Part shown: in pieces, positions 11,619 to 23,700 of the stretch
How positions within the stretch are numbered: the first letter of the stretch is position 1
Layout: every line of letters starts with the position of its first letter
Assembly (NCBI GenBank): GCA_937919915.1
Contig: CALFOL010000804.1
Coordinates: 1-32,042 of the forward strand
Direction: 5' to 3'
Source: an uncultured Planctomycetaceae bacterium
GTDB taxonomy: Bacteria; Planctomycetota; Planctomycetia; Planctomycetales; Planctomycetaceae
DNA: 32,042 nucleotides
Made by a program: the position numbers and the translations under genes
Notes under the pieces: model-generated
Databases searched by the model: none
The model's input: the letters and a program-made list of their open reading frames with translations, nothing else
Told to the model about the DNA's origin: nothing

Positions 11619-12044
11619 CTAATTGTTCGGATCGAGGCCATGCGCCTGTCTGACTTCCGCGAGGGTCTCTTTCAAGGACTTTTGCGGAGCCAGGTTTCGC
11701 CGCCGCAGTTGACTCGCATAAACGCGCGAGGCCATTGCATCGCTGATTGCCAGTAATACCAGCCACAATGCCAACAGCAACAAGCCGATTACGTAGGTCG
11801 TTGCGAAAATCGGCGACTCCTCGAAGGCCTTCAGGTATCCGCAAAGACCAATCAACGCTCCTAGAGTGACCGCCAAAGTTGATGTCTGCAGCCTGCGAAA
11901 ATACTGGTGCTGATAAAAACGATGATCAGGCTCGGAAAGCTTCTCGTCCGCCAAATGCCCGCGATGTGAGCGAACATGAAAGCAAATCAGGCCGATTCCG
12001 ATTGTGGAGATCATTGCCCCAAAAAAAACTTCAGGCGTTGGCAT
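11619..12044 (-). CDS. Hypothetical membrane protein
   Basis: MPTPEVFFGAMISTIGIGLICFHVRSHRG, then hydrophobic segments TLAVTLGALIGLCGYL and YVIGLLLLALWLVLLAI. Longer start at 12221 is less plausible. Confidence 0.6.
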   Translation of the reverse strand: MPTPEVFFGAMISTIGIGLICFHVRSHRGHLADEKLSEPDHRFYQHQYFRRLQTSTLAVTLGALIGLCGYLKAFEESPIFATTYVIGLLLLALWLVLLAISDAMASRVYASQLRRRNLAPQKSLKETLAEVRQAHGLDPNN

Positions 12045-12683
12045 CAGAAGCCTCGCAGAATTCAAAGATCTGGAAAAGTCGCGGTGTTGGTCAGCAAATT
12101 TCGCGGGATCGCGTACGAACTCCCGTGTAGGACTACAGCAATAGTGTTGAGATAGAGAATAGATTAAGCAATCGTCGTACCCCGTCTTTTTGTTTTTCGA
12201 AAACACGGTCGTATAACCCAAGCAGCTAAAGCCAAATACTTTATGGAGATTGACTCGGGAACTGCGTTCGGTGGCAACCTTTCTTTGGTAGGTGTGATTC
12301 GCGACAACGCAGCAAAATGATGCGTCTAATACAATACAGTTGTCAAATTGATGTCACCTTATCCAGGTGATGGCACGTTTCTGGTGTAAGAATTGGAGTG
12401 TTATCTACGTCCTTAAAGTATTCAGGCAAAAACGGCTTGCTCCAGCGTTCTAAAGAAACTAGCCGCCGTTTGAAAAACTGACGAACGTTTTTGCAATCCC
12501 GGCGTCTTCATTTTACGTATTTACAACGTTGACCTTGTGTCTTTTGGTGCTGCAGGTGAATTTTTAGATTGTTTTGCGGAGTTGTTTTCCAGTCCAAGAC
12601 GGGCTTTTGGTGTTTCGGAAGTGTTTCGGCCAAGACGGTCGACAGGCGTCCGGCATGAGCTTTGCCTAAAGGTTTATGCAACA

Positions 12684-12700
12684 GCTGGCAGAATGCCAGT
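12684..12700 (+). promoter_or_regulatory. Short hairpin just upstream of the Shine-Dalgarno of the sigma factor gene
   Basis: CTGGCA-gaa-TGCCAG (plus a flanking G-T pair), followed by AAGGAGGT at 12708-12715 and ATG at 12720. Confidence 0.45.
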
Positions 12701-12719
12701 TTCAAAAAAGGAGGTCATT

Positions 12720-14384
12720 ATGCCCAGATACCGATCAATTCAGATTCAGGAACTTGCAGCTCAGCAGGTTCGATTCGCCCCTCAAAGCGTCCGGAACAAG
12801 CAAATTTTGCAGGCGGAGGCATTTCTGCTGTCAATCGACAGTGAAATGAAATACGTCTACGGAAACATCTGCCATGAAATTACGGGCTACCGGCCTGAGG
12901 CGGATGAGGATTCGAACGTTACGGGCGAAGACCTGGCTCACGACTTGCGTTGTTTCGTTGAAGACCTGTCAGACAGTCTGAACGTTTCGGCCGCAGATTT
13001 GGGCGAACCAGTCCTGACTGTGCAGGAGATCAGTGAGCAATTCAATGTGTCTGCGAAGACTGTTGATCGCTGGCGGGACCGTGGTTTGGCGAGTCGCCGG
13101 CTGAAAGTAGATGGCCGTAAGCGAGTGGTGATTCCAAAATCAACACTTGATCGTTTCGTCGCGGCGCACCAGAAGGAAATTGACCGCGGACGGACCTTTC
13201 GTCAAATGTCCGACTCTGAGCGTCAGCAAATTATCATTGATGCTCGCGCAATGGCGGCGACCGGGTTGGGTCTCACCGAAGTGAGTCGCCAGTTGGGACA
13301 AAAACTGGGGCGAGCGACGGAGACAGTTCGGTACACGCTTCGTGATTACGATAAGTCACATCCTGAAAACGCGATTTTTCCCAAGGTTGCTGGTCAGGTT
13401 TCCGTCGAGCACCAGTCTTTAATGTTTGACTTGCATGCTCAGGGGATCTCGATTGCCGACCTGGCTCGACGTTTCGGTCGCAGCAAGCCCGCAGTGCATG
13501 GGATTCTGGCTGAAGTTCGCATCAAGCGACTGAAGGCTGTTCCAATCGATTATATGGACAGCGATGAGTACCGTATGGAGGGTGCCGAGGGAATTATCTG
13601 CGGCACAGCACCCGATTATGACCCGCAGAAGGGGAGCCTGCGTGTCCCGTCAGGGCTGCCGGCTTATCTGGCTGAGCTGTATAAGGTCCCGCTGCTGAAT
13701 AAGGCTCAGGAGCAGTACTACTTCAGAAAGATGAACTTCCTGAAGTATCAGGCATCCGAACTTCAGAAAACGCTCGATGTTCGTCGGACGGCAGCACGTG
13801 TGGTTAAGAAGATGGAGTCGCTGCTGGAGGATGCGAATGGTGTCAAGAACATGCTGACTCGTTCGAATTTGCGGTTGGTCGTGTCTATTGCAAAACGCCA
13901 TATGAAGCCCGGAGTGAATTTCTTCGAGCTCGTGAGTGATGGAAATATGTCTTTGATTCGGGCGATCGAAAAGTTCGATTACGCCCGCGGAAACAAGTTC
14001 TCGACATATGCGTCATGGGCGATCATGAAGAACTTCGCTCGTTCCGTGCCGGCTGAGCACACTCGGCTGGACCGATTTCGGACTGGGTTCGATGAAATCT
14101 TCTATGATTCTGAAGATGGTCGTGGAAACGCGTTCGCCGAGGAGCTGGTCAATAATTCACAACGTAACGCATTGATGGAGATTCTCGAGGAGTTGAACGG
14201 CCGAGAACGAAAGGTGATTTCCTGCCGCTACGGTCTGGGCAAAGGTAGCGAACCGGAAACGCTTGAGCAAGTTGGGAATCGGCTGGGGGTTACGAAAGAG
14301 CGTGTTCGACAGATTGAGGTTCGGACGCTGGAGAAACTTCGACGCATCGCACAGCGCAAGCAGGTCGATATTCCGGGGATTTGA
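12720..14384 (+). CDS. Sigma-70 family RNA polymerase sigma factor with extra N-terminal helix-turn-helix modules
   Basis: Region 2 LTRSNLRLVVSIAKRHMKPGVNFFELVSDGNMSLIRAIEKFDYARGNKFSTYASWAIMKNFAR; region 4 LNGRERKVISCRYGL...LEQVGNRLGVTKERVRQIEVRTLEKLRR; N-terminal LTVQEISEQFNVSAKTVDRWRDRGL. Strong AAGGAGGT ribosome site. Confidence 0.93.
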   Translation: MPRYRSIQIQELAAQQVRFAPQSVRNKQILQAEAFLLSIDSEMKYVYGNICHEITGYRPEADEDSNVTGEDLAHDLRCFVEDLSDSLNVSAADLGEPVLTVQEISEQFNVSAKTVDRWRDRGLASRRLKVDGRKRVVIPKSTLDRFVAAHQKEIDRGRTFRQMSDSERQQIIIDARAMAATGLGLTEVSRQLGQKLGRATETVRYTLRDYDKSHPENAIFPKVAGQVSVEHQSLMFDLHAQGISIADLARRFGRSKPAVHGILAEVRIKRLKAVPIDYMDSDEYRMEGAEGIICGTAPDYDPQKGSLRVPSGLPAYLAELYKVPLLNKAQEQYYFRKMNFLKYQASELQKTLDVRRTAARVVKKMESLLEDANGVKNMLTRSNLRLVVSIAKRHMKPGVNFFELVSDGNMSLIRAIEKFDYARGNKFSTYASWAIMKNFARSVPAEHTRLDRFRTGFDEIFYDSEDGRGNAFAEELVNNSQRNALMEILEELNGRERKVISCRYGLGKGSEPETLEQVGNRLGVTKERVRQIEVRTLEKLRRIAQRKQVDIPGI

Positions 14385-14758: not shown

Positions 14759-14831
14759 GCTAGCGTAGCTCAATTGGTAGAGCACTGGTTTTGTAAACCA
14801 GATGTTGTGGGTTCAAGTCCCTCCGCTAGCT
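14759..14831 (+). tRNA. tRNA-Thr (anticodon TGT)
   Basis: Acceptor GCTAGCG/CGCTAGC; anticodon stem CTGGT-TTTGTAA-ACCAG; T-arm GTGGGTTCAAGTCCCTC region with GTTCAAGTC. Confidence 0.95.
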
Positions 14832-14898
14832 TCGTTGAACTTTAGTAGAACGAGGTGTGTCGAAGTACTCAATCTGCATCGTTGACGGAAAATTTTGG

Positions 14899-14981
14899 GG
14901 GGGTGTTCCAGAGCGGCCAAATGGGCCAGACTGTAAATCTGGTGGCGTACGCCTTCGCAGGTTCGAATCCTGCTGCCCCCA
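14899..14981 (+). tRNA. tRNA-Tyr (anticodon GTA)
   Basis: Acceptor GGGGGTG/TGCCCCC; anticodon CCAGA-CTGTAAA-TCTGG; long variable arm; T-arm GCAGG-TTCGAAT-CCTGC. Confidence 0.95.
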
Positions 14982-15021
14982 CTCTCGTGTTTCGTAAAGA
15001 TTTTTGCTGAGCGCGAGTGTC

Positions 15022-15092
15022 GCGGGCGTAGTTCAATGGTAGAACTCCAGCCTTCCAAGCTGGTCGTGTGGGTTCGATTCCCATCGCCCGCT
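15022..15092 (+). tRNA. tRNA-Gly (anticodon TCC)
   Basis: Acceptor GCGGGCG/CGCCCGC; anticodon CCAGC-CTTCCAA-GCTGG; TTCGATTC T-loop. Confidence 0.95.
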
Positions 15093-15114
15093 CTTCCGGG
15101 TCCGCTCGGACGAC

Positions 15115-15189
<75 letters not shown>

Positions 15190-15298
15190 GGGTGTTGGTG
15201 GCGTGAGGTGGTGCTCCGTGTGGGGTGCTGGATTTGTTTTTTGAACGTTTTGTCAATGGCACCGGTGAAGGGCTGTTGCTTCTGGCGTGGAGTTTGAG

Positions 15299-16495
15299 AT
15301 GGCAAAAGAGACATTCGCTCGTACAAAGCCTCATGTTAACGTGGGGACTATTGGTCACATTGACCATGGTAAGACAACTACAACTGCAGCGATTCTCGCT
15401 GTTCAGGCTGCTAAGGGTTTGGGCGTGGCAAAGAGCTACGCGGATATTGCCAAAGGTGGTACCGTTCGTGATGCCACGAAGACGGTGACGATTGCTGCGA
15501 GTCACGTTGAGTATGAGACTCCGAATCGTCACTACGCGCACATTGACTGTCCGGGTCACGCGGACTTTATTAAGAACATGATCACCGGTGCTGCCCAGAT
15601 GGACGGTGCTATTCTGGTGGTTGCGGCTGATAGTGGTCCAATGCCTCAGACGCGTGAACACATTCTGTTGGCTCGCCAGGTGGGTGTTCCTGCTCTGGTT
15701 GTGTTCATGAACAAGGTTGACCTTGTTGATGATGAGGATCTGCTTGAGCTGGTTGAGCTGGAGGTTCGTGACCTGCTGACGAAGTACGGCTTCCCTGGCG
15801 ATGATATTCCGCTTGTCAAGGGGAATGCGAAGGGTGCGCTGGATGCTCCTAATGATGAAAAGTTTAGTGCTTGCATTACTGAGTTGATGGAACAGCTGGA
15901 TGCTTATATTCCTGAGCCTGAGCGAGATTCTGCTAAACCATTCCTGATGGCAATCGAAGACGTCTTCTCAATTGAAGGTCGTGGTACGGTTGCGACTGGT
16001 CGTATTGAGCAGGGGGTTGTTAAGGTTGGTGAGAAGGTGCATTTGATTGGTCTTGCTGATACTGTTGAGACGACGTGCACTGGCGTTGAGATGTTCAAAA
16101 AACTGCTTGATCAGGGTCAGGCTGGTGACAATGTTGGGATTCTTCTTCGTGGCTTGAAGAAGGAGGATGTTCAGCGTGGTCAGGTTTTGGCAGCTCCTGG
16201 TTCCATCAAGCCTCATACGAAGTTTGAGGGCGAAGTTTATGTTCTGAGTAAAGAAGAGGGTGGTCGACACACGCCGTTCTTCTCGGGGTATCGTCCGCAG
16301 TTCTACTTTCGGACAACGGACGTGACTGGCACGACAGCGCTGCTTGGTGGCGCTGAGATGTGTATGCCAGGCGACAACGTTAAGGTTGAAGTGTCTCTTG
16401 GTAAGCCGATCGCAATTGTTGAAGGTGTTCGGTTCGCAATTCGTGAGGGTGGTCGAACTGTTGGTTCGGGTGTTGTTACGAAGATCCTGGAGTAG
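15299..16495 (+). CDS. tuf: Translation elongation factor Tu
   Basis: [67 protein letters not shown] at 15299 preferred over 15287. Confidence 0.98.
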
Positions 16496-20796: not shown

Positions 20797-23700
20797 ATGC
20801 CAGTACCCTCTGTTCGTACAATCGACCAGGACACGGTTCGAAACTTTGGAAAAATCCAGGCTGACTACGAGATTACTGATTTAACTCGTATTCAGACCGA
20901 ATCGTATTCTCGCTTTCTCCAGGTGGAACGTTCTTCGCGCGATCGCCTCGAGCAGGGTTTGGAGGGGATTCTGCGAGAAGTCTTTCCAATCGAAAGCTAC
21001 GATGGGCAATTCCGTTTGGAATATGTTCGCTACGAACTCGGCAAGCCTCGTTACACGCCGCCTGAGTGTCGTCAGTTGCGACTGACGTATGGTCGACCTT
21101 TTCGGGTTTGGCTCCGTTTGATTAAGGAACAGCCTGTTGAGGAAGAGGTGTATCTCGGTGACATCCCAATTATGATCGGTGGCGGTGAGTTCATCGTCAA
21201 CGGTGCTGAGCGGGTCGTTGTTAGTCAGTTGCATCGTTCTCCTGGTGTCGACTTTGTAATGGCGGAAGAAACTGCCAGTAGTGATCGTAAGACGCAGTCC
21301 TGCCGAATTATTCCGGAACGCGGTAGCTGGATCGAACTGATCTGTACCAAGAAGGACGCTGTTGCTGTCCGGATTGACCAGAGCGGTAAGTTCTCTGCGA
21401 TGACGTTGCTGCGGGCAATGTCAGTGGAGTACTCCAGTAACGCGGAGATCATTCGTCTGTATCACGATACGGAGGAAATGAAGCTGACACCAAAGACAGA
21501 GCCGGGGAAGCTGATTGGTCGGTATGCCGTGGTGGATGTTGTATACCCCGCGAATCATTCACGTGCTGGTGAAATTCTGGTTGATAGCGGTGGTGTGATT
21601 TTGGAGGAGATGATCGATGATCTCCTTGCGTCAGGCCTGAAGACGATCGAGCTGGTGATTGGTCCGGAAGATCTTTTGATTCTTAAGTCATTGGCTGAAG
21701 ATAACACTGCCACTCACGAGGAGGCATTGCTCCGAATTTATCAGCGCCTACGTCCTGGTAACCCGCCAAATCTGGACAAGGCGTCTGACCTGTTCAAAGA
21801 AAAGTTCTTTGACCTTAATCGGTATCGTCTGGGTCGCGTCGGCCGTTTTCGTATCAACCGCAAGTTCAGTCAGGATATTCCTGATGATGAAATGACTTTG
21901 CGTCCGGAAGACTTCGTGAACGCGATTCGTTATTTGATGCGTCTGCGGTTGAATGACGAGACTGCGCAGATCGACGACATTGACAACTTGGGAAATCGTC
22001 GATTGCGAACAATCGACGAGCTTGGTGCGGATGAAATTCGCAAAGGATTCTTGAAGCTTCGTCGCACAGTTCAGGAGCGAATGAGCCTGAAGGAAGTCGA
22101 CAGCATGACTCCGCGGACGCTGATTAATCCGAAGAGCGTGTCGGCGGCGATCGATTTCTTTTACGGTCGTAGCGAGTTGTCTCAGGTAGTGGACCAGACC
22201 AACCCGCTTTCAATGCTGACACACGAGCGTCGGCTGAGTGCACTGGGGCCTGGCGGTTTGAACAGAAAGCGGGCGGGCTTTGAGGTTCGCGACGTTCATA
22301 TTTCGCATTACGGTCGTATTTGTCCGATTGAGACGCCGGAAGGTACGAATATTGGTTTGATTTCCAGCCTGGGGATCTTTGCTAAGGTTGATGATTATGG
22401 ATTCCTGATCACCCCATACCGAAAAGTTGCAGACGGGAAGGTGACGGACGAAGTCGTCTGGCTGCGTGCTGACGAAGAGTCATTTGGTCACGTTGCTCCA
22501 GCGGATACACCGATCAAGGATGGCCAGATTCTGGATGACTTGGTTCTCGCTCGGTTCAAGAGCGACGTGGTTTGGGTCCCTAAAGAAAAGGTTCAGTACA
22601 CCGACGTGGCGCCATGCCAGATGGTCGGCGTATCTGCTGGTTTGATTCCGTTCCTCGAGCACGATGACGCGAACCGAGCGTTGATGGGTTCGAACATGCA
22701 GCGACAGGCTGTTCCGCTACTGATTACAGAGCGTCCAGTCGTTGGTACCGGCATGGAAGATTACGTTGCTCAGCACTCTGGCATGCTGCAGAGAGCCGAA
22801 CGGGCTGGAACCGTGACCTATGTTGACGCCAACGTTATCGAAATTGATGACCGTAAATATCCTCTGCGAAAATTCGTTAGGCTGAATGAGCGAACCTGTT
22901 TGAATCAGAAGCCGATCGTTGCGATCGGTGACAAAGTCAAGGCAGGGCAGTTGTTGTGCGACAGTGCGGCGACCCGTCGTGGATCGCTGGCTTTGGGGCG
23001 GAATGTGACCGTCGCGTTCATGTCGTGGAACGGCTACAACTTTGAAGACGCGATTATTCTGTCAGAGCGTTTGGTTAAAGAAGATGTCTATACGTCCATT
23101 CATCTGGATGAGTTTGATGTTGAGATTCGCGAAACCAAGCTGGGACGCGAGGAATTCACTCGAGATATTCCGAACGTCAGCGAAAAGGCGCTGCACCATC
23201 TGGACGACGATGGGATTGTGCGGATCGGTACGCGAGTTCTTCCGGGCGACATTCTGGTAGGTAAGGTTTCGCCGAAAGCGAAGTCAGAGCTCACGCCGGA
23301 AGAAAAGCTGTTGCACGCGATCTTTGGTCGTGCTGGCGAAGACGTAAAAAACGAATCGCTTGAGGTGCCGAGCGGTGTTGGTGGGATTGTTATTAACACA
23401 GAGAAGTTCTCTCGCCGGATGAGTCTTTCGGATCTTGAGCGGAAGAAATTTGAGGACGAGCTGAAGAAGACTGAAGAGGAAGGTGACACAAAGATCACCG
23501 AAGCATTCCAAAAGTTTGCTGCTTCAATGAAGTCTGAGTTGGGTGACGCCCTGACTGATCCTGACGGTCGTGATATGGGCTCACTCCAGGAGAAGAAGGC
23601 GGTTGCCGAATTCTCTCGCGGATTTCTGGCATACTTTGAGGGATTGGATATCCGCAGTGCTCAGAAGAAGACCGCAGCTCGCAAGCTGATCAAGGAGGAA

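Follow-up and report, generated by a model that had tools for sequence, protein, structure and literature searches.

A Sigma-70-Family Protein of Planctomycetota with Three N-Terminal Helix-Turn-Helix Modules and without Region 3

We found that a gene of an uncultured Planctomycetaceae bacterium encodes a sigma-70-family protein in which three helix-turn-helix (HTH) modules precede sigma regions 1.2, 2, and 4 and a disordered linker replaces region 3. The gene lies in a stretch of 32,042 nucleotides, which we call the window (GenBank assembly GCA_937919915.1, contig CALFOL010000804.1). We give somewhat better than an even chance to the explanation that this fused sigma serves Planctomycetota as an alternative factor of the sigma-70 family, descended from a group 1-3-type sigma by loss of region 3 and equipped with its own sequence-specific N-terminal DNA-binding module. 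We count in its favor the SigA/HrdB/RpoD-like sigma regions, the single copy per genome, the predicted HTH folds, and upstream sites that exceed their frequency in shuffled sequence. We infer that the protein binds core polymerase, reads promoters, binds operators, and stands in a cascade. Regions 1.2, 2, and 4 would bind core RNA polymerase and read the -10 and -35 elements. The HTH module, tethered via the stretch 274-312, would bind an operator within the promoter or close to it and would give binding energy and specificity that otherwise come from region 3 (extended -10 reading) or from a separate activator. The gene itself would be placed in a cascade below an ECF sigma and sigma-54. A sigma with a built-in DNA reader would explain both the conserved sigma half and the persisting HTH half. 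The gene and the parts of its product are as follows.

12710 to 12714, + strand: ribosome-binding site GGAGG, read directly; kept in most aligned near relatives
12720 to 14384, + strand: fused sigma gene, 554 aa, ATG start (open reading frame listing and translation)
12720 to 13004, + strand: N-terminal domain, residues 1-95, in the AF2 model mainly helices plus two short strands
13011 to 13166, + strand: HTH 1, residues 98-149, BldC/excisionase-like winged HTH (HTH_17, 1.5e-8; Foldseek, BldC)
13212 to 13358, + strand: HTH 2, residues 165-213, trihelical HTH (three high-pLDDT helices in AF2; weak profile match, HTH_38, 0.0035)
13404 to 13538, + strand: HTH 3, residues 229-273, trihelical, resolvase/transposase type (HTH_23, HTH_38, and HTH_7 matches; AF2)
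13656 to 13769, + strand: sigma region 1.2, residues 313-350, aligning with SigA/HrdB PDB sequences from residue 313
13833 to 14057, + strand: sigma region 2, residues 372-446 (Sigma70_r2, 1.4e-13)
14046 to 14129, + strand: disordered linker replacing region 3, residues 443-470 (pLDDT below 50 at 443-468; spacing)
14130 to 14360, + strand: sigma region 4, residues 471-547, with the near-RpoD helix VTKERVRQIE (Sigma70_r4, 1e-19 at 489-541)

The reading frame opens with the ATG at 12720 and closes with the stop codon at 14382-14384. A GTG at 12537 would open a longer frame; the conserved protein begins at 12720, and orthologs align over their full length from residue 1. All 97 non-identical orthologs keep the fused architecture at 551 to 562 aa. 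Thus, this architecture is far beyond chance, and the frame singled out by a first-pass annotation of the sequence is a real gene, with its ATG, GGAGG, stop codon, and conserved orthologs. Full-length orthologs were found in nearly all of 58 relatives, and the exceptions are mostly fragmented assemblies; the source assembly is itself a draft, in 925 contigs and 94% complete. We sampled 392 genomes across the phylum, and the N-terminal half was present as a single copy in 40 of 40 Planctomycetia genomes and once per genome in 47 of the 352 other Planctomycetota genomes. One draft genome in this sample has the gene for the N-terminal half split across two contigs. The named loci with the fused sigma are all from Planctomycetota, the phylum covered by the in-depth search, so that restriction to this phylum is not proven.

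The first-pass annotation had proposed a sigma-70 factor with several DNA-binding-like modules at its N terminus, which might read extended promoter elements, and had quoted three HTH segments. These segments are present. HTH_17 and HTH_23 exceed their Pfam cut-offs in the protein, and both matched in every one of the 66 N-terminal halves scanned from Planctomycetia; of the three modules, HTH 2 is the least well backed by profiles. Structure prediction, in which HTH folds might have been missing from the N-terminal half, confidently gave one winged HTH and two trihelical HTHs, and profile matches and predicted folds together bear out a sigma-70-family protein with several such modules. The AF2 model of residues 1-302 alone had a mean pLDDT of 90.5 and a pTM of 0.59, and the full-length model, built on an alignment of 76 orthologs, had a mean pLDDT of 84.5 and a pTM of 0.46. 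At these pTM values the placement of the modules relative to one another is not fixed by the models. In Foldseek searches, the winged HTH matched the DNA-bound BldC structure 6ama (probability, 0.95; TM, 0.64 of target), and HTH 2 and HTH 3 together weakly resembled tandem transposase DNA-binding domains, such as that of Tc3 (1u78). The E values for the N-terminal half were all 0.2 or worse, which is usual for folds so short. The domain at residues 1-95 has no Pfam match above cut-off and no known relative.

These modules could be something other than promoter readers. If they were an intramolecular inhibitor or sensor, the protein would be a working sigma with a built-in anti-sigma. Regulatory C- or N-terminal extensions are known in ECFs (PMC8103513), the domain at residues 1-95 has no HTH match, and in the loci examined, no anti-sigma partner is conserved among the adjoining genes. 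However, it would be unusual to find three distinct HTH folds, with their recognition helices conserved, in an inhibitor, and the HTHs remain in the lineages described below, whose sigma half has decayed. We consider this alternative improbable.

In the C-terminal half, Sigma70_r2 and Sigma70_r4 both exceed their Pfam cut-offs, which places the protein in the sigma-70 superfamily. The absence of region 3, suspected at first reading, has stood up: no region 3 family is among the Pfam hits listed for this reading frame, residues 443-468 between regions 2 and 4 are the sole stretch with a pLDDT below 50 in the full-length model, and the spacing from FSTY (region 2.3) to the KERxRQ helix (region 4.2) is 97 to 99 residues across the family. 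The same spacing is about 157 residues in E. coli sigma-70. The linker between regions 2 and 4 measures about 28 to 36 residues. DGN, KFSTY, W433, and the K-E-R-x-R-Q positions are invariant in the Planctomycetia orthologs, and the ortholog alignment shows that the residues of region 2.2 and FSTY are conserved. The FSTY/W433 aromatics (E. coli numbering, coincidentally the same here), which capture the -10 element, are retained. The second tryptophan of the region 2.3/2.4 pair is an invariant alanine (W-A), the residues that read position -12 differ, and the region 4.2 helix differs little from the RpoD one. Together, these three features suggest altered -10 recognition and recognition of a TTGAC-like -35 element. 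Among Planctomycetia, mean pairwise identity is 69% in the sigma half versus 54% in the HTH half. Because the sigma half evolves more slowly and keeps every landmark, a working sigma appears to be the best reading in this class.

A layout of region 2, linker, and region 4 is also that of the ECF sigmas. N-terminally extended ECFs (original groups ECF87 to ECF89) have been reported from Planctomycetes, without a mechanism (PMC8103513). An ECF sigma with such an extension would account for the two-domain layout with its linker of fewer than 50 residues; region 1.2 and the N-terminal modules would be extra. However, a tree of own-genome sigmas and family members united the fused protein with three short paralogs in one group (support, 97/92) that sat with RpoD and a SigB-like sigma, and the own-genome ECFs lay on the other side of a 99/98 branch. 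The RpoD/SigB-side grouping excludes 15 of the 16 ECF-like rows, and the sixteenth, L130, branches off next outside it. The protein also has region 1.2 and RpoD-like KFSTY and VTKERxRQ motifs, and RpoD-type models outscore the ECF model on it (1e-43 versus 3e-31). We therefore regard an extended ECF as very improbable. The own-genome tree likewise argues against membership in ECF87 to ECF89, groups that we compared by description only. The placement with RpoD and SigB types, away from the ECFs, indicates that a group 1-3-type ancestor lost region 3, in convergence with the ECFs. Placement is thus as in groups 1 to 3 and region 3 is missing; group 3 sigmas "usually contain" sigma2, sigma3, and sigma4 (PMC4598750).

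The three short paralogs (L002, L003, and L004, on own-genome contigs C116, C401, and C700) are about 300 to 326 aa long and have regions 1.2, 2, and 4 without region 3. They belong to a short, region-3-less, non-ECF sigma group that looks undescribed and is expanded in Planctomycetota. The same genome has two RpoD-type sigmas, on contigs C442 and C347 (L006 and L005), with frames of 553 and 607 aa; in R. maiorica there seem to be three (L240, L242, and L243). With 49 Sigma70_r2 matches, this one draft genome illustrates how sigma-rich such bacteria are.

The chief rival to a working sigma with its own DNA reader is a protein that would act first of all as a sequence-specific DNA-binding regulator, whose sigma half would tether or dock on RNA polymerase while the short region-3-less sigmas would initiate. 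The evidence that bears on it comes from members outside Planctomycetia. We fetched 40 of these and scored them on the positions conserved in Planctomycetia. Fifteen kept 52 to 77% of the region 2 positions, and 25 (families f10, f70, f92, f97, and f99) kept 6 to 31%, with a clear gap to the rest. Region 4 is gone in f70 and f97, and its recognition helix is lost in f10, f92, and f99. N-terminal half positions were kept at 38 to 70% in the sigma-decayed members and at 41 to 70% in the other out-of-class members. The sigma-decayed, HTH-retaining members are L208 to L210, L212 to L214, and L216 to L234. Mapping the intact and decayed states onto a tree of the N-terminal half alone requires three changes, each imposed by branches with good support. 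Because the rebuilding of a decayed sigma is unlikely, we read these as three losses, and the sigma half would have decayed at least three times independently.

A frameshift or pseudogene explanation did not hold, as no region 4 was found in any downstream frame at the 10 loci checked. Within one genus of f10, the decayed C-terminal half is still 74 to 79% conserved, which argues against a pseudogene; the decayed half probably has a new function, and the protein of the decayed lineages has probably ceased to be a sigma factor. A separate short sigma without region 3 was present in at least 22 of 25 genomes with a decayed fusion versus 4 of 15 with an intact one, a comparison that ignores kinship. 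Since the sigma half has decayed in 25 of the 40 out-of-class members, selection was not on sigma activity alone. Retention of the HTH half in such members points to a function separate from sigma activity and outliving it, most simply operator binding, and the two halves, it appears, can evolve separately.

The five families that keep the HTH half, the repeated decay, the lack of a hidden region 4, and the association with short sigmas all favor the regulator. However, the Planctomycetia keep all of the sigma landmarks and their sigma half is the slower to change, which fits a working sigma, and the disregard of kinship weakens the short-sigma association. We judge the regulator unlikely as an account of the family, if less so than the other rivals.

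Two promoter-like sites precede the fused sigma gene.

12483 to 12506, + strand: ECF-type promoter-like site GAAC-N16-CGTC, lying 237 nt upstream of the ATG (alignment of upstream regions)
12652 to 12665, + strand: sigma-54-type promoter-like site GGCATG-N4-TTGC (GG-N10-GC), 68 nt before the ATG

Across the orthologs these sites read GAAC-N16/17-CGTC and GGCAYG-N4-TTGC. The second site shows the -24/-12 arrangement typical of sigma-54 promoters. The hallmark of ECF promoters is AAC/CGT (PMC8103513). The pattern GAACNTTT-N11..13-CGTC occurred without mismatch in the upstream regions of 22 of the 97 orthologs (shuffle mean, 0.06; maximum, 1) and with at most one mismatch in those of 58 (shuffle mean, 2.28; maximum, 7), and GGCA.[GC]..[CG]TTTGC was found in those of 16 (shuffle mean, 0.02; maximum, 1), counts that near-identical relatives inflate for both sites and that are set against shuffles keeping half of the dinucleotides rather than the full composition. 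Fourteen of these 16 regions also carry the ECF-type site. Within the window, the ECF-type pattern has its single match at 12483-12506, and GGCAYGNNNTTTGC matches once, at the sigma-54-type site. Two unlike promoter-like sites before one sigma gene suggest a sigma cascade. Because an RpoD-like region 4.2 is expected to read a TTGAC-like -35 element, an ECF sigma would be a likelier reader of the GAAC site than the fused sigma itself.

A regulon for the ECF-type site was sought without success: the own genome has 18 exact core matches versus 6 for the reversed pattern, and most lie inside genes. A stricter family-wide search returned mainly scattered single matches and the fused gene's own promoter, which established no regulon, and no obvious copy of the GAAC-type motif was found at any ECF gene in the set checked. 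The leader from the ECF-type site to the ATG (12524-12719) has conserved blocks beyond the sigma-54-type site, such as CCAAGACGGGCTT and CAAGACGGTCGA, which are possibly RNA structure or operators.

The gene had also been described as lying directly upstream of an RNA polymerase/ribosomal cluster.

14759 to 16495, + strand: tRNA-Thr, tRNA-Tyr, tRNA-Gly, tRNA-Thr, then tuf (ARAGORN; conserved neighborhood)

It is upstream of this cluster, but not directly: four tRNA genes and 0.9 kb lie between it and tuf, and rpoB starts at 20797. The order in the window continues from tuf with tRNA-Trp and nusG-rplK-rplA. The order tRNA-Thr/Tyr/Gly/Thr-tuf-nusG-rplK recurs in 25 of 62 ortholog loci of sufficient length, at 46 to 79% protein identity. 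No tuf was seen adjoining the fused gene in the members fetched from outside the class. The tRNA-tuf linkage looks ancestral within the class and repeatedly lost. On the other side, at 11619-12221 on the - strand, is a small open reading frame without a Pfam match that is divergent from the sigma gene and is kept beside that gene in 12 close relatives.

As a rule, a sigma factor works with activators that are separate proteins and that it recruits. If our preferred explanation is true, the fused sigma would test whether a sigma can carry its own activator and dispense with region 3. The lineages that retain the HTHs and have a decayed sigma half would be matched natural experiments that separate the two functions. 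More tentatively, and with the chances against it, the family could be a phylum-level sigma class in which a three-HTH operator-binding module replaces region 3 in function, making activator and sigma one polypeptide, and in which the fusion was functionally split in at least three lineages, leaving the HTH half as a DNA-binding protein and a short sigma to initiate. The fused sigma would also offer a way into transcription in Planctomycetes, which is poorly understood and in which many standard expression systems fail (PMC11958385).

No description of the fused sigma was found in the open-licence literature searched, and an earlier mention is possible; within this scope it is not an already characterised sigma subfamily, as the first-pass annotation had allowed it might be. 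The R. baltica sigma factor RB12251 (567 aa; pI, 9.4) is repressed under heat, cold, and salt (PMC2754498). We could not assign it to the family, since length and pI fail to separate it from the RpoD paralogs of a related Rhodopirellula. MzaA, a sigma factor associated with the MZA anti-phage system, is the top NCBIfam hit, through its sigma regions. We rejected this identity, as the score is 153 bits against an equivalog cut-off of 800 and the N-terminal half is not matched; no defence genes were seen near the fused sigma gene.

BldC/excisionase-type proteins share the fold of HTH 1 and its KTVxRW motif. However, BldC is a small stand-alone protein, whereas HTH 1 is one of several modules within a sigma factor. 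The NCBIfam BldC model gave 22.3 bits against a cut-off of 77, and 64 of 66 Planctomycetia members matched it below that cut-off. HTH 1 is therefore a domain relative only. ECF (group 4) sigmas are like the fused sigma in their sigma2-linker-sigma4 layout without sigma3 (PMC8103513), but they fall in another clade of the own-genome tree, and the fused sigma adds region 1.2 and resembles RpoD in region 4.2. Sigma-I of Bacilli and Clostridia likewise has part of region 1.2 and sigma2 without sigma3 (PMC10575876) and is the nearest known region-3-less sigma having region 1.2. Unlike the fused sigma, SigI has an unrelated C-terminal domain and no N-terminal HTHs; the fused sigma has N-terminal extras and a canonical region 4 where SigI has its own domain in place of sigma4. 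With the group 1/2 sigmas (RpoD, SigA, and HrdB), the fused sigma shares regions 1.2, 2, and 4, the FSTY motif, and a near-identical region 4.2 recognition helix, with K for R at the first position. It differs from them in lacking regions 1.1 and 3, in its W-A pair, and in its three N-terminal HTHs. New in this analysis are the two upstream promoter-like sites, the tRNA-tuf-nusG-rplK linkage, and the decay of the sigma half outside the class.
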